From IMG/VR virus record IMGVR_UViG_3300042541_000250, positions 1-30,646 of that record: a DNA stretch of 30,646 nt, one strand, 5' to 3'. This DNA comes from a virus. Of this stretch, positions 3,991 to 20,866 are shown piece after piece. The position numbers and the translations under genes are program-made. Each line of letters opens with the position of its first letter. The stretch's first letter is position 1. The notes beneath the pieces were generated by a model. That model saw only the letters and a list, made by a program, of their open reading frames with translations. It searched no databases and had not been told where the DNA came from.

Positions 3991-4395
3991 ATGGCAGCAA
4001 ATACATCACCCATATTCGCACTATCTCCCGAACTTTCATTTGCAACGGTAACAGGTGCGACAACCGACCGAACAGGTGCAACGATGACAAACACCGTCAC
4101 GCTTTTAACTGCTGCAACAAACGGCACGAAGATCACGCAGATAGGGGCAAAGGTTGCAGGAACAAATGCGGCAACTGCTGTGCTTATTTTCATTAGTGAT
4201 TCAACTGGGGCAAATTTCAAGTTGTTTGATGAGATTGCTTTGGCTGCCATTACCGCAGGAAATACAACCACATCGCAAAGGGCGGTAACTGCTTACTCTG
4301 ATTTGCAATTAAAAGCTGGGCAAGTCGTAAAGGTTGGAACAACTGTTGCCATCACCGCAGGAGTAAATATATTTGCAGTAAAAGGAGATTATTGA
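3991..4395 (+). CDS. Small beta-rich virion protein, decoration or fibre
   Basis: This 134-aa protein is rich in Ala, Thr and Val. An upstream in-frame ATG at 3958 would overlap the fibre gene by 32 nt and add residues copied from its frame, so the ATG at 3991, right after the stop at 3989, is preferred. The sequence alternates strands (NTVTLLTAATNGTKITQIGA, AAVLIFISDSTG, KLFDEIALAAI, AGQVVKVGTTVAITAGVN) and looks like a single beta-sandwich or jelly-roll domain, as in capsid decoration or fibre-tip proteins of environmental phages. No catalytic motif is visible. It lies between two fibre genes with 1-nt gaps. Confidence 0.6.
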   Translation: MAANTSPIFALSPELSFATVTGATTDRTGATMTNTVTLLTAATNGTKITQIGAKVAGTNAATAVLIFISDSTGANFKLFDEIALAAITAGNTTTSQRAVTAYSDLQLKAGQVVKVGTTVAITAGVNIFAVKGDY

Positions 4396-8626: not shown

Positions 8627-9201
8627 CAAGAGAACAAATTGAAGCTGCGATGATCAAGAAGGGATTCGCTTATTTCTCAACTGGAGAATTGAATCTGAAC
8701 ATCATCGGTGTTCGCCAAAGTTCAACCGGCAACAAGGTGACAAACCTATTTGATGACTTTCTAACTTTGAGCTACAAACACAACGGTGCTTGGGTATTCA
8801 AAAAGTGGGCAGCGACAACTGACCCAGGAACAAAGGGCGTGAAGGAATTTCACAACGCTGCTGGTGTTGCTCGTTTGGTTGCTGGTCAATATCGTGGTTC
8901 ACACGCTATCGGTTTGCATCAAGGCAAATATGAAGCGTTGAGACAAGCGAAGAATGTCAAAGTTTATCGTGATGCCAACAAGGATATGACCTATGATGAA
9001 AGCAAAATTCAAGAAGGTGTGTTTGGAATCAACATCCACAAAGCCGGTGCAGATTCTACCTATGTAGAGAACTGGAGTGAAGGTTGTCAGGTGTTCAAGA
9101 AGTCAGCTGACTTTGACGAGTTTATGGTCATCGTTAAAAAAGCCGCAGCATTGCACGGAAATTCATTCACTTACACATTATTAAACTCAAACGAGATATG
9201 A
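8623..9201 (+). CDS. Endolysin-like protein with L,D-transpeptidase-type active site
   Basis: In this 192-aa protein the C-terminal half carries GINIHKAG (135-142, His139) and WSEGCQVF (151-158, Cys155), which match the His ... S-x-G-C active-site layout of the YkuD-like fold. Bacteroidetes phages often carry such a protein in the lysis cassette. The N-terminal 60 residues (IEAAMIKKGFAYF, LNIIGVRQSSTG, FDDFLTLSYKHNG) form the start of the same domain. No signal peptide is seen, so release would need the holin-like protein encoded next. It probably acts on peptidoglycan; hydrolase versus transpeptidase activity cannot be told from sequence. Confidence 0.78.
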   Translation: MTREQIEAAMIKKGFAYFSTGELNLNIIGVRQSSTGNKVTNLFDDFLTLSYKHNGAWVFKKWAATTDPGTKGVKEFHNAAGVARLVAGQYRGSHAIGLHQGKYEALRQAKNVKVYRDANKDMTYDESKIQEGVFGINIHKAGADSTYVENWSEGCQVFKKSADFDEFMVIVKKAAALHGNSFTYTLLNSNEI

Positions 9202-9435: not shown

Positions 9436-11322
9436 ATGATCTTCCAAAGAATTAATTTTCACGACAATGTTCTTCCCGTATTCAAAGAGAATAAGGCGAA
9501 GGGATATGTCACTTTCGGAGCGGACAATCTCTATCCCGAATTTCTTATAGAACTATTTAACAAAAGCCCTAAACACAATGCAATCGTTTCTTCAAAAGCT
9601 TCGTATATTAGTGGAGTTGGCACTAAAGTATTTGGACAAAACACCGTTGACATCGCAAAAGCCGAAGCCAAGATCAAAGCCATTAACGCCTACGAAACCC
9701 TTGACCAAGTCAAAGGTAAAATAGCGTACGACCTTGAGTTGTTCAATGGCTATTGCCTTGAGGTAATTTGGAACAAAGCCAAGACGGCAATTGCTGAGAT
9801 TTACCACATCCCTTTCAAGAATATCCGCAAAGGACTTGAAGGCGAATATGTGTATTGTGAGGATTGGACTGACCGCAAAGCGGAGCAAGTTCACTATCAG
9901 CCATTCAATGCAACCACACGGGAATCAAAGTCACTTTATTATTGCCAATTCTATCGTCCCGGACAAGGGGAATATCCTTTGCCTGATTACATCGGTGCGT
10001 TAAAATATATTGAAGTGGACACGGAGATTTCAAATTACTATTTGAACTCAATCAAAAACGGATTCACCGCACAAACTCACATCCAGTTATTCAAGGGAAT
10101 CCCAACACCTGAAGAAGCTCGTGCAACTGCAAGACGATTCAAAGAGAATTATCAAGGCACGGACAATGCTGGTGGACTTATCATTCAATACAACGACCCA
10201 CAAGAGAAAGAGTCGGTAATCAGCAACTTGCAACCGTCTGATTTTGACAAGCAATTTGATTTGCTAAACAAGACCGTACAACAAGAGATATTTGTTGCAC
10301 ACAAGGTGAACTCTCCGATGTTGTTTGGAGTGCGTGTAGAGGGTCAATTGGGAGGTCGTTCAGAGATGATTGAAGCGTATGAGATGTTCCAACAATCGTA
10401 CATCGAACCAAGACAACAAAAGATTGATGATACTTTGACTTACTTGTTTGAGTTCATCAGTCCAGTTCGCTTGGAAACAATAAACAAACCACCGATCGGA
10501 TTGGATTATCAGGCGTTATTTACTGCCGGTTTGATTTCAAACGAAGAAGCTCGTCAAGAATTGGGACTTCCACAAATTTCAAATGTAAAAGTGCAGTCAT
10601 CATTGAACGATGCCATCAACGCATTGAGTCCGTTGGTTGCAAACAATGTCTTGTCAAATATGACAATCAACGAGAAGAGACAATTGGCTGGACTTGATCC
10701 GATTATTGGCGGTGATTCTTTGCCATCAGGAGCAGCACCCGTTGCCTTGTCATCACAAAATCCTTTTGGATGGGATGATGAAAGAGATTTGGCGGTGTTT
10801 ATGAAGTACGGTGAACCTGCTGAGAACTTTGAACCGATGAAGTTTGACTTCGCATCTGCGATTGAATCAGCCATCTTGAATGTGCTGAAGGAAAACAAAG
10901 GTTTGCAGATAGGTGATATCGTCAACATCACCAAACTTGATCCACAAGTGGTGGTTGATACCATTGCAAAATTGAACGATGCCAAGTTAATCAAAGGATA
11001 CAACGAAGGTCTTGAGGTTACACCAAAAGGATTGGATGAAATCAGTCAACTACAAACCGAAATCGTTGTCCGTTACAAGTACGCACTTGCACCAGGAATA
11101 TCAGGTGGAATGATTATACCCGGTTCTCGTGATTTCTGCCGACAAATAGATAGGAGCAATCGTGTTTATTCTCGTGCGGATATTGATGCAATGTCGGCAC
11201 AAACGGGGATTGATGTTTGGAGCAGACGAGGTGGGTGGTATCACGACCCAGTGAGAGATGTGAATGTTCCACAATGCCGTCACATTTGGCAACAACAATT
11301 ATTAAGGAGAATTAAGAAATGA
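9436..11322 (+). CDS. Portal protein with C-terminal winged-helix-like and minor-head-like domains
   Basis: The frame is open from 9367, but residues before M at 9436 come from the overlapping holin frame; the ATG at 9436, 16 nt after the holin stop, is chosen, giving 628 aa. Residues 1-430 follow a phage portal pattern (LYPEFLIELFNKSPKHNAIV; DLELFNGYCLEVIWN; MLFGVRVEGQLGGRSEMIEA), forming the DNA entry ring. About 477-537 resembles a winged helix (ILNVLKENKGLQIGDIVN; KLNDAKLIKGYNEGLEVTPK). About 545-628 resembles the end of minor head proteins (GSRDFCRQIDRSN; WSRRGGWYHDP; QCRHIW). Connector genes follow, the next overlapping by ATGA. Portal identity is firm; the extra domains are tentative. 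Confidence 0.85.
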   Translation: MIFQRINFHDNVLPVFKENKAKGYVTFGADNLYPEFLIELFNKSPKHNAIVSSKASYISGVGTKVFGQNTVDIAKAEAKIKAINAYETLDQVKGKIAYDLELFNGYCLEVIWNKAKTAIAEIYHIPFKNIRKGLEGEYVYCEDWTDRKAEQVHYQPFNATTRESKSLYYCQFYRPGQGEYPLPDYIGALKYIEVDTEISNYYLNSIKNGFTAQTHIQLFKGIPTPEEARATARRFKENYQGTDNAGGLIIQYNDPQEKESVISNLQPSDFDKQFDLLNKTVQQEIFVAHKVNSPMLFGVRVEGQLGGRSEMIEAYEMFQQSYIEPRQQKIDDTLTYLFEFISPVRLETINKPPIGLDYQALFTAGLISNEEARQELGLPQISNVKVQSSLNDAINALSPLVANNVLSNMTINEKRQLAGLDPIIGGDSLPSGAAPVALSSQNPFGWDDERDLAVFMKYGEPAENFEPMKFDFASAIESAILNVLKENKGLQIGDIVNITKLDPQVVVDTIAKLNDAKLIKGYNEGLEVTPKGLDEISQLQTEIVVRYKYALAPGISGGMIIPGSRDFCRQIDRSNRVYSRADIDAMSAQTGIDVWSRRGGWYHDPVRDVNVPQCRHIWQQQLLRRIKK

Positions 11323-11882
11323 CAAACTTTGTATATTTCATAAGCACCACTTATCTCAAGGACAACAGTCCGTTGAATGAGAATGTGGATGACAAGTTGC
11401 TCAAGTCAGCAATAAAAGAAGCTCAAGAGATTTATATCCGGGATGTCATCGGTTCAGGTATTTACAACGAGTTGCAAGTTCAGGCATTTGCAGGAACTCT
11501 GACCAACTTAAACACCACCCTTTTGGATTCATACATTGCACCTTGTTTGAGGTACTACACTTTGACTGAGGCAATGTTGCCAATGACATTCAAGTTGATG
11601 AACAAATCAGTTGCATCTCGTGAATCTGACAATGCTCGTGCAGTATCGGTGGAAGAGATGACATTGATTGAAGGCAGATACCGTGACAAAGCCGAATACT
11701 ATGCGAATAGGTTGCGTGATTACTTGCGTACCAATACGAATGATTATCCGTTATTCTTGAATCCTGGCAATACCTTTGACACCATCAGACCAAAGAACAC
11801 CGCATTCAGCGGAGGAATTTATCTACCGACAAACTATGACGATTGTTTCTGGAACTATGACTTCCCCCACGAGGACAAATAA
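11319..11882 (+). CDS. Head-tail connector (adaptor) protein
   Basis: This 187-aa protein starts in an ATGA overlap with the portal gene. It is mostly helical: YLKDNSPLNENVDDKLLKSA, EAQEIYIRDVIGSGIYNELQ, a central LRYYTLTEAMLPMTFKLMNK helix, and a charged helix RYRDKAEYYANRLRDYLRTN. It ends with PNYDDCFWNYD-like aromatic residues. This follows the DUF6712/adaptor pattern in which such a protein docks under the portal ring. The position directly after the portal supports it. No tail-specific motif is seen. Confidence 0.7.
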   Translation: MTNFVYFISTTYLKDNSPLNENVDDKLLKSAIKEAQEIYIRDVIGSGIYNELQVQAFAGTLTNLNTTLLDSYIAPCLRYYTLTEAMLPMTFKLMNKSVASRESDNARAVSVEEMTLIEGRYRDKAEYYANRLRDYLRTNTNDYPLFLNPGNTFDTIRPKNTAFSGGIYLPTNYDDCFWNYDFPHEDK

Positions 11883-11930
11883 GTGGCAAAAAAACAACGA
11901 AGCCAAACTTCTCAAATTCCTAAAGAATGA
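11883..11930 (+). CDS. Possible 15-aa basic peptide
   Basis: A GTG directly after the connector stop opens a frame of 15 codons (MAKKQRSQTSQIPKE) closing in an ATGA overlap with the next gene. It may be a real mini-gene or simply a coupling device that carries ribosomes across the gap. Nothing but the perfect stop-start junctions supports it. Confidence 0.35.
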   Translation: MAKKQRSQTSQIPKE

Positions 11931-12367
11931 CCCTAAACCAAATCATCACAAAAATCCAAGAAGCAGCCGAAAGCCATAAAATGGTCGGTCACTTTGGTGT
12001 AGGTCAGCAGTCCAATCTCACGGTTGAGAATGTTGAATACTATCCGCTTGTTTGGTTGTATCCTGATGGGTTCAATCTCCAGTCAGCCGGGAAGTTGATG
12101 ACATACAACTTTGCATTGATTGTGATGGATCGTGTTTTTGAATCTGAATCCAACACAATTGAGGTGCTTTCGGATACGGCTCAGATTATGGCTGACATAT
12201 TTGCTTTGATTGACAACAACAATCAAGCAGATGGTGATTTTGAATTAAGCATCAACGGGAATGCCACTCCTTTCTACGATGCGAAAACTGACATACTTGC
12301 TGGATATGCAATCAACTTCCAAATCCTCACTCCTTATTTGGCTAATAGTTGCGTTGTTCCTGTGTAG
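11927..12367 (+). CDS. Head-tail junction protein, putative
   Basis: This 146-aa protein has an N-terminal helix (LNQIITKIQEAAESHKMVGH), a beta-rich middle (VEYYPLVWLYPDGFNLQSAG; YNFALIVMDRVF), an acidic helix (IEVLSDTAQIMADIFALIDN) and a final strand pair (ILAGYAINFQILTP). This arrangement and its place between the adaptor and an HK97 gp10-like protein fit a tail-terminator or neck protein. The 3' end overlaps a second frame starting at 12306. Confidence 0.6.
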   Translation: MTLNQIITKIQEAAESHKMVGHFGVGQQSNLTVENVEYYPLVWLYPDGFNLQSAGKLMTYNFALIVMDRVFESESNTIEVLSDTAQIMADIFALIDNNNQADGDFELSINGNATPFYDAKTDILAGYAINFQILTPYLANSCVVPV

Positions 12368-12599
12368 TGTGCTTTGGTCAATGTTCAACTTTCAAGAAGA
12401 ACACCGACCCATCCCACCGCAGATCAATGTCGAGATGCACGAGCGAATCGTTGAACATACCAAGATAAAAAGAATAAAGCTCATTGAAGAAATCAACCAC
12501 TATGACACGATTTTTCTTGATACTTTTGATGCTACATCTTCAGGACTTGAAGGGGCAATCAATCTCCATAGATTCTGCGACTCTACGCTCGGCAAATAG
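12306..12599 (+). CDS. Membrane-anchored small protein nested in connector region
   Basis: The frame is open from 12261; several starts are possible (12261, 12279, 12306, or a GTG at 12369 after the upstream stop). I favour 12306 (97 aa) because it keeps a strong membrane helix (LLIWLIVALFLCSVLW) after a short Ser/Lys N-terminus. The rest is soluble: IPPQINVEMHERIVEHTKIK, then a Thr/Asp stretch and GAINLHRFCDSTLGK. It overlaps the preceding gene by 62 nt and the next by 98 nt in another frame, a layout like Rz/Rz1 spanins. Function unknown. Confidence 0.5.
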   Translation: MQSTSKSSLLIWLIVALFLCSVLWSMFNFQEEHRPIPPQINVEMHERIVEHTKIKRIKLIEEINHYDTIFLDTFDATSSGLEGAINLHRFCDSTLGK

Positions 12600-12846
12600 T
12601 TACTTGGTCAAAGGTGCAATCGCACGGCAGAAAGTATCGCAATTGATGAAGGTTGTCCAAGCGGATTCCATCATCATTGACCAGCAAGATTCAATCATCA
12701 TCAAGCAGAAGTTGAACATCGGATATCTGAAGGATGAAAACAAAGTCCTTGTGAAGCAAAATAAAGCCATCTCACGCACTTTGAAGTTGTTCAAGAGTAT
12801 AAGTATAGGTTTGGTAATTTTAAGCGTTCTCGGATGGCTCAAATAG
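12502..12846 (+). CDS. Signal-peptide coiled-coil protein with C-terminal membrane helix
   Basis: The start at 12502 has the CTATG context common here; an earlier in-frame ATG at 12484 is possible. The 114-aa product has a signal-like segment (MTRFFLILLMLHLQDLKG), a long helical middle (ARQKVSQLMKVVQADSIIID and KDENKVLVKQNKAISR) and a C-terminal membrane helix (SISIGLVILSVLGWL). N-terminal export signal plus C-terminal anchor is the topology of single-protein spanins, but no lipobox Cys is present. The stop overlaps the next gene by 13 nt. Confidence 0.55.
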   Translation: MTRFFLILLMLHLQDLKGQSISIDSATLRSANSYLVKGAIARQKVSQLMKVVQADSIIIDQQDSIIIKQKLNIGYLKDENKVLVKQNKAISRTLKLFKSISIGLVILSVLGWLK

Positions 12847-13370
12847 ATTTATCCAAATTGCCTGATGCACTTGATACTTATTTAGGTGATGCATCTCAAG
12901 GGTCACTCCTTCAGCAAATTATTATTGATTGGTGGAACAAGAAGGTAATCCCACCGATTTGGGCGAACATTGATGCAAACAATAGCATCGCAAGTGGTAA
13001 ACTTCGCCAATCGTTCGCACCCGGTAACATCACCAAGTCACCGACATCCATCAACACAATTTTACTTGCTGAGGACTATTGGGAGTTTGTTGAATACGGA
13101 AGAAAGCCAACACGAGGAGGACATATTGAAGGCACTCCTTACTTATGGCAATCGTTAAAAACTTGGATCAGTCAAAAGGGTATCAAACCGGCTGAAGGTC
13201 AAACCTACGATTCACTTGCCAAAGCCATTGCCAAGAAGATTCACCGAAGCGGAACGAAGGCACAACCATTCCTTGAGAAAGCGTTTACCGAATCCATACA
13301 AATGGAATTGGTCAACGAGTTGAACGCTCGTTTCGGGGATTTGATATTTAGTGAGGACATAAAAATATAA
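12834..13370 (+). CDS. HK97 gp10-like neck/tail completion protein
   Basis: This 178-aa protein starts inside the preceding gene. It has an N-terminal helical part (LLQQIIIDWWNKKVIPPIWA), then GKLRQSF, a beta strand pair around LLAEDYWEFVEYGRKPTRGG, and a C-terminal SLAKAIAKKIHRSGTKAQPF helix with AFTES. The YWEFVEYGRKP-type segment with the downstream RSGTKAQPFL is typical of gp10-like neck proteins. It closes the connector operon; the next gene has its own promoter. Confidence 0.7.
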   Translation: MAQIDLSKLPDALDTYLGDASQGSLLQQIIIDWWNKKVIPPIWANIDANNSIASGKLRQSFAPGNITKSPTSINTILLAEDYWEFVEYGRKPTRGGHIEGTPYLWQSLKTWISQKGIKPAEGQTYDSLAKAIAKKIHRSGTKAQPFLEKAFTESIQMELVNELNARFGDLIFSEDIKI

Positions 13371-13372
13371 TT

Positions 13373-13417
13373 AAAAGTAAAATTTATTTGCATTACTGAT
13401 AAGTTTATTTTACTTTT
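13373..13417 (+). promoter_or_regulatory. Inverted-repeat operator around the early promoter
   Basis: AAAAGTAAAAT (13373-13383) is perfectly repeated in inverse as ATTTTACTTTT (13407-13417), an 11-bp repeat with a 23-nt spacer. The left arm lies just upstream of the -33 box and the right arm covers most of the -7 box. The gene directly downstream encodes a small HTH protein, so autoregulation is a reasonable inference. The AT-rich sequence makes partial matches common, but a perfect 11-bp match here is notable. Confidence 0.55.
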
Positions 13418-13418
13418 G
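13387..13418 (+). promoter_or_regulatory. Canonical Bacteroidetes promoter of the early operon
   Basis: TTTG at 13387-13390, a 20-nt spacer, and TACTTTTG at 13411-13418 match TTTG-N20-TAnnTTTG completely. The ATG of the HTH gene is 8 nt after the -7 box, so the leader would be only a few bases. It is the first promoter after the connector operon and would drive the recombination genes. Confidence 0.8.
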
Positions 13419-13426
13419 CTCTCGTT

Positions 13427-13612
13427 ATGGATTACACGAAAGCAATTGAAATCATCAAACTGAAACGCAGACAAGGTCTTTATCAGATTGTCGCAAGAAA
13501 AACGGGAGTATCACTTCCAACTGTCAGAAAGTATTTAGTTGAGGGAAACATCGTTTCTCCCAAAGCAAAAGCCGTCATTGAGATTGCATTGAGGGAGGTG
13601 TCCAATGATTGA
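13427..13612 (+). CDS. Small HTH regulator
   Basis: This 61-aa protein contains one helix-turn-helix: helices about 4-14 (TKAIEIIKLKR), then YQIVARKTGVSLPTVRKYLV (residues about 19-38) with the Val-Ser-Leu-Pro-Thr-Val recognition part, and a final helix SPKAKAVIEIALREV. It is nearly the minimum size for a DNA-binding repressor or Cro-like protein. It directly follows the strong promoter whose -7 box lies in an inverted repeat, suggesting it represses its own operon. It overlaps the next gene by 8 nt. Confidence 0.75.
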   Translation: MDYTKAIEIIKLKRRQGLYQIVARKTGVSLPTVRKYLVEGNIVSPKAKAVIEIALREVSND

Positions 13613-13874
13613 GTTGGCAATTAACGGATGGATTCTGACTGTGAAAGGTCTTATCACCGAAGAGAAATACATCTACACAATCGAAGCCGTTGATCATTGG
13701 TTAATCAAAAACCACATTGATGAGCTTCAAGAATATGTCAACTCACGAGAAGTGGGATTCGGTGATTGCGTGACTAAGGAATTTGATGGTATCAACTCAG
13801 AAGCATTCTTTTGTTGGGAGCCGACAAGATTCACAGTCCTTTTTATGCTCGGACAACAAACAAACTTTTTATAA
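13605..13874 (+). CDS. Hypothetical early protein
   Basis: This 89-aa protein, rich in aromatic and Trp residues, overlaps the HTH gene by 8 nt. It has strands at the start (LAINGWILTVKG), an acidic helix (HWLIKNHIDELQEYVNS), then GFGDCVTKEFDGINSEAFFC and a final RFTVLFMLGQ strand. No family is recognised. Its place in the early operon before ERF suggests a host-takeover or recombination accessory, but nothing direct shows this. Confidence 0.6.
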   Translation: MIELAINGWILTVKGLITEEKYIYTIEAVDHWLIKNHIDELQEYVNSREVGFGDCVTKEFDGINSEAFFCWEPTRFTVLFMLGQQTNFL

Positions 13875-13881
13875 AAACTCT

Positions 13882-14421
13882 ATGAATAAAAGCGAATCAA
13901 TCAAGAACATTGCCGGTGCGTTGGTAAACTTCCAAGCAACGGTGAGCAAGGTCGGAAAGGAATCAAGCAATCCTTTCTTCAAATCCAAGTATGCAAGTTT
14001 AGCGAACATACTGGACACCATCCAAAAGCCATTGAGCGAATGCGGTTTGGCAATTACACAGTTCCCTGATGGGAATGCACTCACGACATTAATCGTTCAC
14101 GCTGAATCAGGCGAGTGGATGGAATCATCCTATGTGATGCCGGTTGCAAAACAAAACGATCCACAAGCAATGGGAAGTGCAATGACCTACGCACGGAGAT
14201 ATGCACTCGGCTCAATCCTAAATCTGAACATTGACGATGACGATGACGGAGAGAAAGCAATGGGAAGGCAGTCAGCACCCAAGAAAGAAGAACTCACCCC
14301 AAAGCACAAGAGTTGGGCAAAGGCAGTTGAACACTTGCAGACAGGTGGACTGATGACCGACATCACCAGTAAGTTTGAAGTGAGCGAAACAAATCAGAAA
14401 CTTTTAATAGGCGAGAAATGA
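13882..14421 (+). CDS. ERF family single-strand annealing protein
   Basis: The frame is open from 13783, but the ATG at 13882 in the ...CTATG context, just after the previous stop, gives the canonical ERF start (179 aa). Hallmarks are NPFFKSKYASL (30-40), GLAITQFPDG (55-64) and DPQAMGSAMTYARRYAL (93-109), then the acidic DDDDDG run (118-123). ERF proteins anneal complementary strands in phage recombination and work with a 5' exonuclease. The next gene, overlapping by ATGA, is a YqaJ-type nuclease, giving the complete pair. The C-terminal 55 residues are linker-like. Confidence 0.92.
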   Translation: MNKSESIKNIAGALVNFQATVSKVGKESSNPFFKSKYASLANILDTIQKPLSECGLAITQFPDGNALTTLIVHAESGEWMESSYVMPVAKQNDPQAMGSAMTYARRYALGSILNLNIDDDDDGEKAMGRQSAPKKEELTPKHKSWAKAVEHLQTGGLMTDITSKFEVSETNQKLLIGEK

Positions 14422-15065
14422 AACTTCAACTTCCAACAATTCACACTAATTTGAACGAAGACGACTGGCAAGATCTAAGGCGTTCTCGCTTCACCGCATC
14501 TGAAATCCACAAGCTGATGGGAACTCCGAAAAACAAATCGGAGTACCTATCGGAAACTGCAAAGACATTTATCTTTGAGAAGGCAGCGGAGTATCTGACC
14601 GGTCAAAGAGCAGAGATGTATGGTCGTGCTTTGGACTGGGGCAAGGAACACGAGAAAGAGGCATTTCACTACTTCACTCAGCAGACCGATGACTTTTATA
14701 CATACTACGGTGCGGAAACATACACCTTCATCACCTATGGAGAATGGGGTGGATATTCACCTGATGCACTTGGAACACACCTGGTTGAAATCAAATGCCC
14801 GTTTAATTCGGGAAACCACCTTCAGAACTCATTCATCACCAACAACGAGCAACTCAAATCTAAACGCCCGGAATACTATTGGCAAGTTCAGATGGGGATG
14901 GTTGCAACGGAGATGACTGAGGCGTTGTTCTTATCGTACGATCCACGAATGCCCATCGGCAAGAAGCTCACGCAAACCTTAATCACTTTGGAGGAGGACA
15001 TTCAAGAAATCATTGACGAGAAGTTGTCTGCGGCTGGAGAACTATTTTTGTCAATCACTAAATAA
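14418..15065 (+). CDS. YqaJ-family recombination exonuclease
   Basis: This 215-aa protein has YqaJ / lambda-exonuclease-like motifs in order: RFTASEIHKLMG (24-35), WGKEHEKEAFHYF (74-86), YSPDAL (113-118, Asp115), LVEIKCPF (122-129, Glu124 and Lys126) and YYWQVQMGM (153-161, Gln156). These are the metal-binding and catalytic positions of the PD-(D/E)xK fold. It would resect double-strand ends so that ERF can anneal the exposed strand. The ATGA overlap with ERF couples their translation. The full length for the family is present. Confidence 0.9.
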   Translation: MKLQLPTIHTNLNEDDWQDLRRSRFTASEIHKLMGTPKNKSEYLSETAKTFIFEKAAEYLTGQRAEMYGRALDWGKEHEKEAFHYFTQQTDDFYTYYGAETYTFITYGEWGGYSPDALGTHLVEIKCPFNSGNHLQNSFITNNEQLKSKRPEYYWQVQMGMVATEMTEALFLSYDPRMPIGKKLTQTLITLEEDIQEIIDEKLSAAGELFLSITK

Positions 15066-15097
15066 ATCGTTCATTCACCAAGTCAAAGAAAAATATA

Positions 15098-15129
15098 TTT
15101 TCATTTGTGAAAGTTATTGTGTTAGTTTG
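15098..15129 (+). promoter_or_regulatory. Weak promoter candidate before the 92-aa gene
   Basis: TTTT (15098-15101), 20 nt, and TTAGTTTG (15122-15129) match the Bacteroidetes pattern with one mismatch in each box. It lies in the 71-nt gap after the nuclease gene, with the ATG 7 nt downstream. A second A/T-rich box (TATATTTT, 15094) is an alternative. Confidence 0.4.
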
Positions 15130-15136
15130 AATCACT

Positions 15137-15415
15137 ATGAAAAACGAAATGAATTTAACACAACTGGAAGAGACATTATTAAATGCCTTAATTAATCACC
15201 TGTATGCTGAAGAAGGTTTCTCAGATGTTGAGGCAAATGATTTGGCTAAATGGACAAACACCGATATCAAGATTGTACGAGGTGGACTTGGTAGTTTAAT
15301 TAAAAAAGGCATTGTTTCTATTTTCCAACAACAGGGTGAAACACAAAACCAATTTCACCAAATCATCTACCTAAACGAACAACACTATAACTTGCATCCA
15401 GTTTGGGGAAAATAA
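15137..15415 (+). CDS. Small winged-helix-like protein
   Basis: This 92-aa protein has helices at LTQLEETLLNALINHLYAEE and DVEANDLAKWTNTDIKIVRG, a third helix GGLGSLIKKGIVSIF, and a wing-like QFHQIIYLNEQHYNLHP at the end. This is the order of a winged-helix domain of MarR/DUF-type, similar to small transcription factors of Bacteroidetes phages. Start context is AATCACT-ATG. Target unknown; regulation of the early operon is inferred. Confidence 0.6.
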   Translation: MKNEMNLTQLEETLLNALINHLYAEEGFSDVEANDLAKWTNTDIKIVRGGLGSLIKKGIVSIFQQQGETQNQFHQIIYLNEQHYNLHPVWGK

Positions 15416-15423
15416 AAAAACAC

Positions 15424-15443
15424 GGGGGTGAGCAATCATCCCC
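15424..15443 (+). promoter_or_regulatory. GNRA-loop hairpin before the 68-aa gene
   Basis: GGGGGTGA (15424-15431) pairs with TCATCCCC (15436-15443) through an 8-bp stem with one wobble, closed by the loop GCAA. On the + strand it is followed by TTAATTAT, not a T-run; on the - strand it is followed by a T-rich stretch (GTGTTTTTTATTTT). It could be a + strand mRNA stability or processing element or a terminator for antisense transcription. Confidence 0.5.
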
Positions 15444-15457
15444 TTAATTATAAAACT

Positions 15458-15664
15458 ATGGACTTAATTTTTTTACTCGTAATCACACCCATCACCATTG
15501 CGGTGATGTTCGTGTACTGGAAGTTGAAACAATACTTCAATGACTTTGACAAATTGCCTGAAGCATCGCCCTATCAATTTGAGAAGGACAACTACATCCC
15601 CGAATTTGATACCTACACGAAGGCAATCTACAAACACAAATTTTACAAAGGAAAAAACAAATAA
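15458..15664 (+). CDS. Small N-terminally anchored membrane protein
   Basis: An in-frame GTG at 15428 lies inside the hairpin and would add 10 residues; the ATG at 15458 in AAAACT-ATG is preferred (68 aa). The N-terminus is one membrane helix (MDLIFLLVITPITIAVMFVY) followed by a basic/aromatic cytoplasmic part (KLKQYFNDFDKLPEASPYQF) ending in KHKFYKGKNK. No family is recognised; a membrane-anchored early protein is all that can be said. Confidence 0.55.
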   Translation: MDLIFLLVITPITIAVMFVYWKLKQYFNDFDKLPEASPYQFEKDNYIPEFDTYTKAIYKHKFYKGKNK

Positions 15665-15671
15665 AAAAACT

Positions 15672-16019
15672 ATGAATCAAATGCAATTATTTGACCAAAT
15701 GCCGGAGAGCGATTTGGCAATCTTGAAGAAAGCGTGGAGTATCTTGAATCGGTACTTTGCGGAAACAACAACACCAGTTAAGAAAACACGCAACCGAGGG
15801 ATTCACCGAACGACTCAATTGTGTTTAGACGAAATCAAGTCCGCTTACGGAAAAGAATGGATTCTCAGACACGATGTTCTTTTTAAGGAGATTTATATCA
15901 AGCACAAGAAATGGGATGTTTCAAATTTGATTAAAAAATATGTTCAACTTAATCTTATTGAAGAAGTAAGGGACACCAAAAACAAAAACAATAACATCAT
16001 TAAATTCAGATTCTTATGA
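15672..16019 (+). CDS. Hypothetical early protein, DNA-binding-like
   Basis: The frame is open from 15540, but that stretch overlaps the previous gene in another frame; the ATG at 15672 in AAAAACT-ATG gives 115 aa. It is helical and basic: LAILKKAWSILNRYFAETTT, TRNRGIHRTTQLCLDEIKSA, then KWDVSNLIKKYVQLNLIEEV and a last KNNNIIKFRFL strand. The ending of helix-helix-strand resembles a winged helix. The stop overlaps the next gene by ATGA. Function unknown. Confidence 0.6.
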   Translation: MNQMQLFDQMPESDLAILKKAWSILNRYFAETTTPVKKTRNRGIHRTTQLCLDEIKSAYGKEWILRHDVLFKEIYIKHKKWDVSNLIKKYVQLNLIEEVRDTKNKNNNIIKFRFL

Positions 16020-16282
16020 CAACAATCATCATTCTCGGACTGGCTTTGTTTCTCGCCATTGCCTTGTTCAAAGTCAACGCACTTTCAACAAGGGAAGAAG
16101 AACTACAAGAACAGGTAAACAAGCTTAATCGTGAGTTGTGGGATTTGCAAACGGAGAATCTGACCATCAGGTCAAAGATTGCCGAAGCAAACGATCGTGC
16201 TAAAACTTGGGAACTTCACGCCAACGATTTAATTCAAAGTAGAAAAAATGCTCAAAGCTCTGGTCGTAAAGGCATCAATTAA
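16016..16282 (+). CDS. Membrane-anchored coiled-coil protein, early region
   Basis: This 88-aa protein starts in an ATGA overlap. Residues 2-20 are one membrane helix (TTIIILGLALFLAIALFKV), followed by a leucine-zipper-like coiled coil at 27-65 (REEELQEQVNKLNRELWDLQ) and a Ser/Lys tail. Its last 35 nt overlap the next gene in another frame. Topology resembles an inner spanin, but it is far from the lysis genes, so another membrane role is as likely. Confidence 0.6.
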   Translation: MTTIIILGLALFLAIALFKVNALSTREEELQEQVNKLNRELWDLQTENLTIRSKIAEANDRAKTWELHANDLIQSRKNAQSSGRKGIN

Positions 16283-16385
16283 TTTCATCATAAAGTGGCG
16301 AGTGTATTTCGCAGGAGAACTCCTCGCCACATTTGAGAACGAACAGGATGCTATTGAATACGCAAACTTTATAGATAGACAATGA
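16248..16385 (+). CDS. 45-aa small protein
   Basis: The frame from ATG 16248 to TGA 16385 begins inside the preceding gene and ends in an ATGA overlap with the next, so it bridges an otherwise unexplained 99-nt gap. The product reads MLKALVVKASINFIIKWRVY then FAGELLATFENEQDAIEYAN: a strand, a turn and a helix, the pattern of a tiny alpha/beta domain. The clean coupling and sensible residue pattern argue that it is real. Function unknown. Confidence 0.65.
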   Translation: MLKALVVKASINFIIKWRVYFAGELLATFENEQDAIEYANFIDRQ

Positions 16386-16570
16386 AGACAACAACGGAAT
16401 TTATCTTTGAGTTGCTATGGGAAAAAGTCCAAAGCGGTGAGCTGAGGTCTGACATCTACACAACATCAGTCCTGATGGACATAGAACGACAAGCCATCCA
16501 GTACGAACCATTCATAAGCCAGGAACACTACAATGACGGATTCAGCAAAGCGAAGGAAATCTATGGATGA
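16382..16570 (+). CDS. Small hypothetical protein
   Basis: This 62-aa protein starts in an ATGA overlap. It is helical and acidic, with FIFELLWEKVQSGELRSDIY, a middle VLMDIERQAIQYEPFI and a tail YNDGFSKAKEIYG. Small proteins that start with xxxLWExxQ and end in GFxxAKxIYG are common in Bacteroidetes phage early regions, but their role is unknown to me. The stop overlaps the next ATG by 8 nt. Confidence 0.6.
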   Translation: MKTTTEFIFELLWEKVQSGELRSDIYTTSVLMDIERQAIQYEPFISQEHYNDGFSKAKEIYG

Positions 16571-16748
16571 GTATGCTCTCATTTGGGCAATCGCAGTTCT
16601 TAGAGAAGATATGCGACACACTTGGGACTACATCGGTAAGCGTCTAAACATTAACCCAAAAAGAGCAGCGTATTTATACGACAAAATAAAACCACACTAC
16701 AACTATGAACAAATATATCAAAGCAACGGTAACGGCAGTAATGATTAA
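16563..16748 (+). CDS. Small HTH-like protein
   Basis: An upstream in-frame ATG at 16533 would add 10 residues; 16563 in the TCTATG context is preferred (61 aa). It has a helix LIWAIAVLREDMRHTWDYIG, then an HTH-like DYIGKRLNINPKRAAYLYDK (about 27-46) and a polar Asn/Gly tail. The HTH sequence 'YIGKRLNINPKRAAYLYDK' fits a recognition unit, so it may bind DNA. Its last 44 nt overlap the next gene in a different frame, so the C-terminal tail may be unconstrained. Confidence 0.55.
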   Translation: MDEYALIWAIAVLREDMRHTWDYIGKRLNINPKRAAYLYDKIKPHYNYEQIYQSNGNGSND

Positions 16749-16983
16749 CCAACCGGAAACAAGGGATTGTGATTTCAAACTTATGACGGTGATCTACAAA
16801 GGTATGTGCAACGGCAATGACTTCTTCACGATGTTTGAAGCCAAGCAACTACCATCACCCGAAACCATCAGGAGAACACGAGCTCAACTCCAAGAGCATC
16901 ACGAACATCTTCGTGGGCAGAACTACCAGTCACGCCAAAGATACCAAGTCAAAGTAAAGAAAGATTTGGGATATCCGCAATGA
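16705..16983 (+). CDS. Conserved-looking early protein with R-rich C-terminus
   Basis: This 92-aa protein starts in an AACTATG context. It is beta-rich at the start (YIKATVTAVMI), carries DFFTMFEAKQLPSPETIRRT, and ends with a basic helix pair (RAQLQEHHEHLRGQNYQSRQ). The 'PSPETIRRTRxxLQE...LRGxxYxxRQ' pattern is frequent in small proteins of Bacteroidetes phages. Function unknown; the basic tail suggests nucleic acid contact. It is the last gene before the promoter and hairpin region at 16965-17095. Confidence 0.65.
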   Translation: MNKYIKATVTAVMINQPETRDCDFKLMTVIYKGMCNGNDFFTMFEAKQLPSPETIRRTRAQLQEHHEHLRGQNYQSRQRYQVKVKKDLGYPQ

Positions 16984-16996
16984 TTGATTAAATTTG
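16965..16996 (+). promoter_or_regulatory. Canonical Bacteroidetes promoter before the replication operon
   Basis: TTTG at 16965-16968 (inside the end of the preceding gene), a 20-nt spacer and TAAATTTG at 16989-16996 are a complete match to TTTG-N20-TAnnTTTG. Transcription would start near 17001-17003, immediately before two hairpins. Confidence 0.8.
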
Positions 16997-17000
16997 TTGT

Positions 17001-17090
17001 GTTAATAGTTGTGTGCGAGACAACTGACAAAGACATTTTGCCCTCGGCAAATACTCAACTCGCACTTGGGTATTTGTTCGGGGGTTTTTT
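17001..17090 (+). ncRNA. Structured leader or small RNA with complementary (kissing) loops
   Basis: Between the promoter and the replisome organizer gene the predicted RNA folds into two hairpins. Hairpin 1 has the stem AGTTGT/ACAACT (17007-17012 with 17020-17025) and 7-nt loop GTGCGAG (17013-17019). Hairpin 2 has an 18-bp stem with one bulge (17041-17058 with 17066-17084) and 7-nt loop CTCGCAC (17059-17065). The two loops are perfect reverse complements, so a 7-bp kissing interaction is possible. Hairpin 2 ends in six T and acts as a terminator. The unit may be a discrete small RNA of about 90 nt or an attenuator for the replication genes. A short frame through the region (GTG 16999) is a competing reading. 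Confidence 0.6.
17041..17090 (+). terminator. Rho-independent terminator/attenuator before the replisome organizer
   Basis: The arm 17041-17058 (starting CCCTCGGCAAATAC) pairs with 17066-17084 through 18 base pairs including three G-U wobbles and one bulged T, followed by six T (17085-17090). The ATG of the next gene is only 5 nt further. Since the promoter at 16965 lies about 70 nt upstream, transcription reaching the replication genes must read through it or come from another start. Confidence 0.8.
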
Positions 17091-17095
17091 GATTT

Positions 17096-17791
17096 ATGGA
17101 AAATATAGGACAAATAGTTAGAAGCAAAAAAACGGGGAAGAGCAGATACACTCCCATCAACAATGATATCTTGCAAAGCTCACAGTTGACTTGTGAGGAA
17201 AAAACAATCTTGATCTATCTATTATCATTGCCTGAAGATTGGGTGGTTTATAAGACCGTCATTTGGCAGAAAATGAACATAGGTAGAAACCGATTCAATG
17301 CTCACTGGAAAGGATTGGTCGACAAAGGGTATATCGTTTCAGTTCGTGTGATTGATGCTGAAACAAATCTCGTGCGTGGATGGAATCATATTGTCTATGA
17401 AGAACCAGTACTGACCGAATGTCGGATTGACCAACCGTCGGACTTACCGAATCTCGGACTGTCCGAAAACCATACTATATATAAAGAAGACATTCCACAA
17501 AAGAATAATAATACAAAAGAAACAACTGTTAAAATTTCTGATGAGTACATAGAATCCTTTGATTTATGGTTGAAATATAAACAAGAGAAGAAACAAAAAT
17601 ATACCAAGACAGGTATTGAACAACTGGTTAAAACAATTAAAGACAAATACACGCCAAGTGAATTTACCAAAGTTGTTGAATTCTCAATCAGTCAAAACTA
17701 TTCTGGTCTATACGAACCGAAAGAAAATAATACGAGTAATCAACAAATAATCCACCGAAGTAAGTTTAATTTGAAAGACTATGAACTCTGA
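17096..17791 (+). CDS. Replisome organizer / replication initiation protein
   Basis: In this 231-aa protein the N-terminal 105 residues form a winged helix (SRYTPINNDILQSSQLTCEE; then EEKTILIYLLSLPEDWVVYK; and MNIGRNRFNAHWKGLVDKGY), the layout of phage replication initiator and helix-turn-helix-36-like proteins. A polar linker (KNNNTKETT) follows, and the C-terminal part (FDLWLKYKQEKKQKYTKTGI and YTPSEFTKVVEFSISQNYSG) resembles the DnaD-like tail that loads a helicase. The next gene is DnaB, overlapping by 11 nt. It probably binds the phage origin and delivers DnaB. The preceding leader may control it. Confidence 0.75.
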   Translation: MENIGQIVRSKKTGKSRYTPINNDILQSSQLTCEEKTILIYLLSLPEDWVVYKTVIWQKMNIGRNRFNAHWKGLVDKGYIVSVRVIDAETNLVRGWNHIVYEEPVLTECRIDQPSDLPNLGLSENHTIYKEDIPQKNNNTKETTVKISDEYIESFDLWLKYKQEKKQKYTKTGIEQLVKTIKDKYTPSEFTKVVEFSISQNYSGLYEPKENNTSNQQIIHRSKFNLKDYEL

Positions 17792-19013
17792 GCAATATAT
17801 ACTTTCCCAACTTTTGTTTTATGACCAAACAAGAGCAATGCTTCCACGCATCAAATCGCAATGGTTTGAAGACAAGCTAAACAAACGCATCATTGAGGCA
17901 ATGTTGGAGATGTACATTAACAACGACCCCATTGATGTTCTTACTTTGGGCAGATTATTCAAACGGGAAGAGATGATCTACATCGTTCGCTTGACTCAAG
18001 ATGTCTACGGGATGCCAAACATCAGCAGTCACCTGCCCGAACTTGAACACAAGTACCTGAAGAAGGAATTCTTGAACAACCTTTCTACTTTGGATTTGGC
18101 AACCGACTTGAAAGAATTGCTCACCAATGTCCAAACGATGATAGACAACACCAAGTTCACAAGCATCAACGACCCTGTGCAGATTACACAAGTTACAAAC
18201 AAAGCCGTTGATACAATCATTGAAGCCGTGAAGCGTGGTGATCAACTAACCGGCAGACCAACGGGATGGGTTGGACTTGATAGGATGTTGGGTGGATGGA
18301 ATCCCGGTGATTTAGTTGTGATGGCTGCGAGACCTGGTCAAGGCAAAACGGCACTCGCTCTTACTTTGATGTGGGAGTTTGCCAAGCGTGATGGGAAAGG
18401 TTTGTTTGTATCGTTGGAGATGAGCAACGACCAAATTGCCAAACGATATTTATCATTGATCACCGACATCTCAAGCTGGAAGATTAGGAACGCCACCTTG
18501 AGAGAATACGAAGTGGATATCATCATTGACAAAGCCAACAATCAGACAGTGCAATTCTTTATTGACGATGACCCTAACTGCTCAATTATGCAAATCAAAT
18601 CCAAAGCCAAGATACATAAAGCTAAACACGGACTTGAACTTCTTGTGATTGATTACATCCAGTTAATCAAAGGAACAAAACAAAACAGGGAGCAAGAAAT
18701 TGCAGAGATATCCCGAAACTTAAAGTTGCTTTCTAAGGAACTAAACATCACCGTGATAGTGTTGGCTCAGTTATCACGCAAATGCGAGGAGAGAGCGGAC
18801 AAGAGACCTATGCTGAGTGATATCCGTGAGAGTGGAAGTATTGAACAAGATGCGGATGTTGTGATGTTCCCATTCAGACCAGCTTATTATTCAGGTGAGA
18901 AGCTTGAGAAGGAAGATGCTGAATTGATTATCGCAAAGAACAGGCACGGAGAATGCCACACGATAGACACCACCTTTATTGGATCACGCACAATGTACGA
19001 AGAACGACTATGA
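17781..19013 (+). CDS. dnaB: Replicative DNA helicase, DnaB family
   Basis: This 410-aa protein has an N-terminal DnaB domain (about 1-105; EQYILSQLLFYDQTRAMLPR) and a RecA-like C-terminal motor. Walker A is ARPGQGKTA (183-191), the catalytic Glu lies in VSLEM (210-214), Walker B is LLVIDYIQL (287-295), and the conserved AQLSRKCEERADKRPMLSDI segment (329-348) plus AKNRHG (385-390) complete the family signature. The linker helix region is shorter than in many chromosomal DnaBs. It unwinds the replication fork as a hexamer. It overlaps the organizer by 11 nt and the HNH gene by 4 nt (ATGA). Confidence 0.95.
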   Translation: MNSEQYILSQLLFYDQTRAMLPRIKSQWFEDKLNKRIIEAMLEMYINNDPIDVLTLGRLFKREEMIYIVRLTQDVYGMPNISSHLPELEHKYLKKEFLNNLSTLDLATDLKELLTNVQTMIDNTKFTSINDPVQITQVTNKAVDTIIEAVKRGDQLTGRPTGWVGLDRMLGGWNPGDLVVMAARPGQGKTALALTLMWEFAKRDGKGLFVSLEMSNDQIAKRYLSLITDISSWKIRNATLREYEVDIIIDKANNQTVQFFIDDDPNCSIMQIKSKAKIHKAKHGLELLVIDYIQLIKGTKQNREQEIAEISRNLKLLSKELNITVIVLAQLSRKCEERADKRPMLSDIRESGSIEQDADVVMFPFRPAYYSGEKLEKEDAELIIAKNRHGECHTIDTTFIGSRTMYEERL

Positions 19014-19606
19014 GAAAGTATTGGACAAAGCAAGAGGTAGATATTTTCGTCAAGATATATCCGCATACGATCACAAACGAAATGGCAGTACAGTTCAACT
19101 GCACTATGTCGCAGGTATACAACAAAGCAACCAAATTGGAGCTGAAGAAAACACCTGAGTATTTAGCCATCAATGGTGGACGGATTAAAGAATCCAATAT
19201 CAACACCCAATTCAGGAAAGGACAAAAAGCTTGGAACAAAGGGATGAAAGGATTGCATATTGGAGGAGTGGAAACACAGTTCAAAAAAGGACACAAGCCA
19301 CCGAATTGGAAACCGATTGGATATCGTTCAATTCGTGATGGATACCTGGTAGAAAAAACCGACAAAGGATTTCAGTTTGTTCACATCCTACTTTGGAAAC
19401 AATACAACCAAGAGATCCCGAAAGGAATGTTTGTGGTATTCAAAGACCGAAACAAAATGAACATCACAATTGAGAATTTAGAGTTAATTGATAGGGCTGA
19501 AAATATGAGGAGAAATTCCTATGTCAACCTACCCGAAGAAATCAAAGAAGTAATTCACATAAAAAAACAAATAACAAGAAAAATAAACAGCTATGGCAAG
19601 AAATAA
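19010..19606 (+). CDS. HNH endonuclease-like protein with N-terminal HTH
   Basis: The frame is open from 18953; the ATG at 19010 in the ATGA overlap with dnaB gives 198 aa. Residues 1-45 look like a Myb/HTH DNA-binding unit (WTKQEVDIFVKIYPHTITNE). The middle repeats FRKGQKAWNKGMKG and FKKGHKPPNWKPIGYRSIRD, typical of phage HNH proteins. The HNH part is FQFVHILLWKQYNQEIPKGM (His125) followed by FKDRNKMNITIENLELIDRA. Such genes are often free-standing homing endonucleases inserted in replication modules, though in this phage type they may also serve a fixed replication or transcription role. Confidence 0.8.
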   Translation: MRKYWTKQEVDIFVKIYPHTITNEMAVQFNCTMSQVYNKATKLELKKTPEYLAINGGRIKESNINTQFRKGQKAWNKGMKGLHIGGVETQFKKGHKPPNWKPIGYRSIRDGYLVEKTDKGFQFVHILLWKQYNQEIPKGMFVVFKDRNKMNITIENLELIDRAENMRRNSYVNLPEEIKEVIHIKKQITRKINSYGKK

Positions 19607-20330: not shown

Positions 20331-20338
20331 TATATTTG
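20331..20338 (+). promoter_or_regulatory. -7 element candidate before the sigma-like gene
   Basis: TATATTTG at 20331-20338 is a perfect TAnnTTTG box in the 69-nt gap before the TTG start at 20357. No TTTG lies 19-21 nt upstream, so the promoter would be incomplete or need an activator. Confidence 0.45.
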
Positions 20339-20356
20339 CATTATTGAAAAGAAAAG

Positions 20357-20866
20357 TTGACAAAAGCGGATATCATATTGGAGTTATCCAAAGCCGATTG
20401 GTTGAGGAAAGCAACGAAGAACATCGCTAAGAACAACGAACTTGCCAACGAACTGTATCAATACTTTTTTTTAACCATCCTTGAGAAACCTGATGAATAT
20501 GTGGAGAAATTACAACGGGAAGGATATCTCCAATTTTGGGCAATCCGCACTTTGTACCTTTGTATCAACGGCAACCGGCATCCCTTCGGTGGATCTCGCA
20601 TCTATGACCACTACGATGTTTATGAGCTGGACTTCCCGGAAGAACCCGACCTACTCGTTGAGCGAGAGCAAGAAGAACAAATTGAGTCAAACCGAATCAA
20701 CAAAATTAACCAAGTAACGGAAACGGCATATTTCTATGAACGAGAACTTTTCAAACTTTGGTGCAGCGGAATGTCAGCAAGAGCCATCCACCGCCAAACG
20801 GATATATCAGTTCGTGAAGTGCTAAGAGTAATTAAACTAATGAAAGAAAGATGTACAACGAAATAA
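20357..20866 (+). CDS. Sigma-70-like transcription factor of phage type
   Basis: This 169-aa protein starts at TTG (20357), because no ATG precedes the conserved N-terminus (MTKADIILELSKADWLRKAT). Residues 25-70 look like a region 2 helix pair (NELANELYQYFFLTILEKPD; GYLQFWAIRTLYLCI), and the C-terminal residues 128-163 are a region 4-like HTH (ELFKLWCSGMSARAIHRQTD; ISVREVLRVIKLMKE). An acidic linker (FPEEPDLLVEREQEEQIESN) joins them. Similar proteins occur in Bacteroidetes phages near replication genes and may switch host RNA polymerase to late promoters. Promoter recognition is inferred. Confidence 0.7.
   Translation: MTKADIILELSKADWLRKATKNIAKNNELANELYQYFFLTILEKPDEYVEKLQREGYLQFWAIRTLYLCINGNRHPFGGSRIYDHYDVYELDFPEEPDLLVEREQEEQIESNRINKINQVTETAYFYERELFKLWCSGMSARAIHRQTDISVREVLRVIKLMKERCTTK

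Follow-up and report, generated by a model that had tools for sequence, protein, structure and literature searches.

A gene for a small helix-turn-helix (HTH) protein lies directly behind an early promoter, P1, that carries a perfect inverted repeat. Is this repeat the operator through which the HTH protein represses its own promoter, as the preliminary description had proposed, or is it something else? The window, i.e., the whole stretch of DNA that was analyzed, is an IMG/VR virus record of 30,646 bases. All of its nameable genes are on the plus strand, which is also the strand on which open reading frames (ORFs) were searched. A distant blastn search found no close phage record in GenBank.

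The HTH and ERF proteins, as well as HTH alignments, served as queries to find relatives and gave 324 HTH matches. Many of these are repeat retrievals of the same contig; the distinct upstream regions used number 108. They were sorted into six HTH groups, A to F; groups A and B, comprising 70 distinct regions, are referred to as close. The compared rows are related, so the counts given below are not independent.

The inverted repeat and its surroundings

The order of genes from P1 onward is HTH, an 89-amino-acid (aa) ORF, ERF, and YqaJ, followed by a second promoter, P2, and further on by DnaB helicase. The features of the locus are as follows.

12834 to 13370, plus strand: upstream late gene, tail completion/neck, 178 aa (phrog_5, E 2.4e-5); stop codon at 13368 to 13370
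13373 to 13383, plus strand: left arm AAAAGTAAAAT, located near -50 to -40; unaltered in 9 of the 70 distinct close regions
13387 to 13390, plus strand: -33 box TTTG, Bacteroidota consensus; extended form TTTGCAT at 13387 to 13393
13407 to 13417, plus strand: right arm ATTTTACTTTT, overlapping the -7 box; present in 60 of the 70 distinct close regions
13411 to 13418, plus strand: -7 box TACTTTTG of P1; predicted transcription start at 13423 to 13424, leader of 3 to 4 nt
13427 to 13612, plus strand: gene for the 61-aa HTH protein, directly behind P1
13605 to 13874, plus strand: 89-aa ORF without a PHROGs or Pfam match
13882 to 14421, plus strand: ERF single-strand annealing protein (PF04404, E 4.4e-27; phrog_2324, E 1.4e-45)
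14418 to 15065, plus strand: YqaJ/RecE-like exonuclease (PF09588, E 1.9e-13; phrog_149, E 1e-25)
15068 to 15129, plus strand: P2, with CGTTCATTCACC at 15068 to 15079, an A-rich stretch at 15084 to 15094, the core at 15098 to 15129, and the -7 box TTAGTTTG at 15122 to 15129
15137 to 15415, plus strand: first gene after P2, 92 aa, with a weak DnaD_N match (PF21984, E 9.7e-6; 26.2 bits versus a cutoff of 27)

The perfect 11-bp inverted repeat reported earlier was confirmed, with 23 nt between its arms and the arm centers 34 bp apart. The boxes and the HTH gene, which starts with the ATG at 13427, are likewise where they had been placed. The arms had also been said to bracket both boxes. This holds for the -33 box; the -7 box is mostly covered by the right arm (13411 to 13417). 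The window has no other perfect repeat of at least 11 bp with a gap of at most 40. Such a repeat appeared in only 7 of 3,000 shuffles of the 56-nt intergenic region, while 12 of 40 dinucleotide shuffles of the whole window contained at least one (mean, 0.325). The repeat is thus unusual locally, yet unremarkable for a 30-kb window, and it was picked after the fact in A/T-rich DNA.

The exact repeat was found in 18 stretches elsewhere in viral contigs. Fifteen of these share the 45-bp length and come from contigs also returned by the scans for relatives or by the P1-core pattern. The other three copies (L213, L216, and L220, with gaps of 26, 28, and 29) are unrelated. At L220, the copy (8827 to 8877) has a TetR-family gene on one side and a large surface-protein-like ORF on the other; no recognized regulator was found beside the copies at L213 and L216.

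Two further candidates were rejected. A transcription terminator was discounted, there being no U-run and no entry at the repeat in a terminator scan of positions 10000 to 18000. The other was a divergent promoter starting from the left arm, whose reverse strand reads TACTTTTA and not TTTG; no likely upstream reverse gene was seen. The repeat could also act as an RNA hairpin in transcripts that read through from the late genes. The window RNA is predicted to fold at -11.6 kcal/mol (z, -3.1) and the 49-mer at -10.6 (z, -3.5), and most of the stem would be retained in one common type of relative (-6.8). Against this, the 49-mers of seven relatives fold with z values from -1.14 to 1.18, compensated changes are almost absent, and no U-run follows the repeat. 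We consider the hairpin highly improbable.

Promoter P1 and the repeat arms among relatives

The promoter reading of the preliminary description held up. P1 is of the Bacteroidota type, lies directly before the HTH gene that heads the ERF/YqaJ operon, and recurs in six HTH groups. Its -7 box fits TAHHTTTG, and the TTTG about 20 nt upstream fits the -33 element; the spacer between the two is 20 nt. A -7 box was present before the HTH gene in 107 of the 108 distinct upstream regions, window included, and took the form TAnnTTTG in 103 of the 108. TTG was found in the -33 zone of 99 of 108 regions, with only 3 of 10 in group F. From the G of the -7 box to the ATG, the distance was 4 to 8 nt in 106 of the 107 regions with a box. 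The remaining region, counted at 2 nt, has another box at 7 to 8 nt, and a stricter filter dropped 0 of 70. The P1-core pattern had 63 matches in viral contigs, and the HTH gene was directly behind it in all 57 that were read. Upstream, homologues of the tail completion/neck gene occur on many kin loci at 66 to 95% identity, and the 3' end of this gene, as judged by eye, precedes P1 in other HTH groups too.

In Flavobacterium johnsoniae, transcription starts 4 to 5 nt past the -7 box, according to PMC6847099. On this spacing, the P1 mRNA would start at 13423 to 13424, 3 to 4 nt before the ATG, and is predicted to be leaderless. Three studies put leaders of at most 10 nt at 13% in F. johnsoniae (PMC6847099), leaderless cases at 5.5% in F. 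psychrophilum (PMC9723704), and leaders shorter than 10 nt at 3.7% in B. thetaiotaomicron (PMC7366714). Judged by comparison, P1 is an ordinary promoter type for Bacteroidota viruses with an unusually short lead-in to its gene.

One relative, L355, is arranged differently. It lacks a promoter right before the HTH gene, and a different promoter is separated from the HTH gene by another gene; by eye, a terminator-like hairpin also stands before the HTH gene (2000 to 2500 and 4110 to 4240). The leader word TCATCAAACAGATACAACTATGACAAA precedes two different genes in L355.

The preliminary description had held that repeat arms varying freely in relatives while the promoter stays would speak against an operator. 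This is what was found for the left arm, kept exactly in the 9 regions listed above. The mirror is perfect in 7 of the 70 distinct close regions, and in 53 of them the right arm is kept and the left arm changed. Only 1 of 770 cells in groups A and B contained a compensated change, versus 117 with one-sided changes. The summed complementarity of the arms was 653, compared with a mean of 661.8 after right arms were shuffled among rows, and all 2,000 of 2,000 shuffles reached it. Two relatives, L242 and L255, which are on the same contigs as L023 and L037, have an intact left arm and GTTGTTGATTT as the right arm, with the recognition helix VSLPTVRKYL unchanged. At fixed spacing, the mirror averaged 4.6 to 6.4 of 11 in the far groups C to F, where the stop codon of the upstream gene falls in or near the left-arm position in several regions (by eye). 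The best mirror at any position exceeded that of shuffles in group A (9.6 versus 7.7) and in group F (7.6 versus 6.2).

The left-arm stretch occurs in 11 A-rich versions in 45 close rows, a set from which 4 short upstream regions were dropped and 12 far rows set aside. In these rows, its columns AAAAG-AAA are 0.96 to 1.0 conserved, and within the close clade 9 of the 11 left-arm columns exceed synonymous sites in conservation. For comparison, the HTH gene is 0.80 conserved over all third codon positions and about 0.70 over the four- and sixfold ones. Since the AAAAG-AAA columns exceed these values, the stretch is under some constraint, but not visibly as a mirror of the right arm; an operator that tolerates change at two positions would also fit this pattern.

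Should the repeat nevertheless be the HTH operator, the protein would sit on the -7 box and so repress its own promoter. The repeat overlies this box and adjoins the HTH gene, it is rare in shuffles of the local sequence, and the AAAAG-AAA columns of its left arm are conserved. The modeled HTH fold resembles LacI, HipB, and Aca1 proteins to a middling degree (best Z, 5.9), and Aca autorepressors act through inverted repeats located in core promoters, as stated in PMC9410906. One of the three unrelated repeat copies, at L220, adjoins a TetR-family gene, though this is another HTH family. Against the operator, the arms change independently in relatives, and the mirror is absent from groups C, D, and E, whose recognition helix nevertheless retains the SLPT motif. 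A distance of 34 bp between arm centers is wide for one small HTH dimer. Moreover, P2 has a similar A-rich stretch without a mirror, and the core is swapped in three relatives whose HTH proteins are near-identical or 85% identical. With almost no coupled change between the arms and no partner for the stretch at P2, the proposed operator was not borne out, and we regard it as quite improbable.

Second promoter P2 and the shared spacer

P2 was examined in 72 distinct contexts, taken from YqaJ matches of at least 70% identity, with the gene start set at the first ATG. A core of the same length as in P1 (32 nt) was found right behind the YqaJ stop in 68 of these, and a TTCATTCAC-like word preceded the P2 core in 64 of 72. 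The -7 box was TTAGTTTG in 34 contexts, TTGTTTTG in 16, TTATTTTG in 10, TTTGTTTG in 5, TTACTTTG in 2, and TTTTTTTG in 1. It follows TTnnTTTG; TAnnTTTG was seen in 0 of the 68 contexts with a recognized core. According to PMC6847099, the A of the F. johnsoniae -7 box is nearly invariant, and G is virtually absent at the two middle positions. P2 therefore fits the known consensus poorly, conserved though it is. The first ATG lies 4 to 7 nt past the -7 box in 61 of 68 contexts, and the box is 4 to 8 nt before the ATG at P1 and P2 alike, so that the P2 mRNA, too, is predicted to be leaderless. The first ORFs behind P2, all 68 of at least 53 aa, fall into 21 families by single-linkage blastp.

To the left of the P2 core is a zone of 86% A+T and 60% A, at the same distance from the -33 box as at P1 and ending in AAAAT in at least 54 of 68 contexts. 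Its mirror match to the arm of P2 itself is just 3 to 7 of 11 in the 68 contexts. Since P2 has such a stretch without the right arm, the most plausible reading of the left arm at P1 is an upstream promoter element rich in A. We estimate at roughly 72% the probability that the site is a host-polymerase promoter with an A-rich upstream element and that the repeat is a chance mirror of its -7 region. The host's main RNA polymerase, of the Bacteroidota type, would read P1 through the A-rich stretch at 13373 to 13383, TTTGCAT, and TACTTTTG, and would thereby drive the HTH gene and then the ERF/YqaJ recombination operon. In this lineage, the A-rich element would by coincidence be the mirror image of the -7 region, producing the inverted repeat. 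Comparison among relatives shows the boxes and the short distance to be conserved, the arms to be independent, and a similar A-rich stretch to occur at P2. From this we infer use by the host polymerase, the transcription start, and help to the polymerase from the upstream stretch.

Three relatives (L023, L037, and L095) have, in place of the P1 core, a core whose -7 box is P2-like (TTGATTTG or TTGTTTTG); the flanks and the HTH gene stay, as if promoter cores had been exchanged. The window also contains TTTGCATTATTGAAAAG at 20335 to 20351, before an ORF at 20357. This word is close to many P1 and P2 cores, lacks a -7 box, and is present in relatives L158, L162, and L190 as well.

A different target for the HTH protein could be the shorter, imperfect dyad in the spacer, TTTGCAT-N3-TGAAA (13387 to 13402), common to both promoters. 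P1 and P2 share TTTGCATnnnTGA (the motif being read in one strict form) and the 32-nt core, and P2 of the window has a clean TTTCA-N4-TGAAA repeat. The strict form of the dyad is rare in Bacteroidota chromosomes (4 matches in 198 genomes versus 2 control matches). The window has 10 sites that score 11 or 12 of 12, versus a mean of 5.2 in shuffles, and 4 of 150 shuffles reach that number; 3 of these 10 are the seeds of the motif itself, and most others are inside genes. Sites scoring at least 10, on the other hand, are not in excess (49, reached by 10 of 40 shuffles), and three P1 variants have lost GCAT. The extended pattern was listed for 80 of 100 stretches, and 24 of the 80 matches listed are on stretches without a homologue of the window HTH, ERF, YqaJ, DnaB, or tail gene, which argues against an operator reserved for the HTH protein. 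Of these 24, 23 carry TTGTAnnTTTG. About half of the 24 among the matches listed are near-identical copies of one phage group and amount to few independent cases; some other members of that group have a distant ERF (35 to 39% identity). Genome counts were mixed. TTTGCAT..TAnnTTTG occurred 117 times versus 46 for the reversed pattern (sums over 41 Bacteroidota genomes), and TGAAA in the spacer 22 times versus 27 for the control in Bacteroidota chromosomes (sums). TTTGCAT therefore looks general and TGAAA does not, in chromosomes sampled from the phylum to which a genome titled Chitinophagaceae belongs, a phylum that may not be that of the host. We consider the spacer dyad an unlikely operator.

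A two-step early switch that does without the repeat appears unlikely, too. The host polymerase would read P1 (TAnnTTTG), the HTH protein would be made from leaderless mRNA, and this protein would help the polymerase to use P2, a constant port under phage control for exchangeable first genes. If this were true, P2 would represent a constant leaderless expression port for differing first genes. As a separate observation, a 73-aa protein encoded at 19593 to 19811 matches phrog_2044, annotated as RNA polymerase beta subunit (E 6e-15), and has no Pfam match; it is possibly a polymerase-binding protein.

The HTH protein and known systems

The HTH gene sits in the operon that P1 would control, and its product is probably a DNA-binding regulator with a target other than the 11-bp repeat. 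The 61-aa model (mean pLDDT, 85.5) has helices at residues 3 to 12, 18 to 26, 30 to 39, and 45 to 59. Its best structural match was a LacI-family regulator (Z, 5.9; root mean square deviation, 2.2 over 46 residues), followed by HNF-1A (5.8), HipB (5.2), MuB (5.2), and Aca1 (4.5), all of which are middling. Because the HNF-1A and MuB domains score similarly, the match points to a common arrangement. Pfam LacI (PF00356) matched with an E value of 3.3e-4 and 20.8 bits, under the curated cutoff of 27, so that membership of the LacI family was not reached. Further weak family matches were to RstR (E 0.006) and mad1 (E 0.0012). A search of solved structures with the HTH sequence gave none at E 0.1, and Foldseek with the first HTH model gave no match at E 0.001.

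The preliminary description had also called the site the main decision point, a view that we found unsupported. None of the 50 plus-strand proteins of the window had an integrase family among its PHROGs matches at E 0.001, in a record that may be incomplete; the ORF at 17096 to 17788 matched Pfam Phage_integrase at E 0.087, far under the cutoff. For the HTH family, a single pattern scan over 84,980 genomes of bacteria and archaea yielded just 8 matches, all of them partial.

This case argues against a plausible operator and illustrates how an A/T-rich -7 box may, by coincidence, be the mirror image of an A-rich upstream element. For uncultivated Bacteroidota phages, it offers predicted leaderless early mRNAs and, in P2, a nonconsensus -7 box before an exchangeable gene slot.

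P1 resembles the primary-sigma promoters of Bacteroidota (-33 TTTG and -7 TAnnTTTG, revised to TAHHTTTG), including the 20-nt spacing, as described in PMC6847099, PMC9723704, and PMC7366714. It is unusual in lying only 8 nt from the ATG, few leaders as short being reported in those papers, whereas P2 differs in its TTnnTTTG box. Like the Aca-type autorepressors in PMC9410906, the HTH protein is a short, single-domain protein encoded in an operon, and Aca1 is among its structural matches (Z, 4.5). In contrast to them, no inverted repeat in the core promoter is conserved among relatives here, the arms being uncoupled, and the HTH gene comes first in its operon; the likeness was seen in the fold and not in the sequence. 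Aca1 was deposited with a 14-bp palindromic target, according to the entry title, whereas the arm centers at P1 are 34 bp apart. With the LacI headpiece and Cro-type HTH domains, the window protein shares the weak Pfam LacI match and Z values of up to 5.9 over 46 residues, but it is only 61 aa long, has no ligand domain, and carries an extra N-terminal helix in the model.
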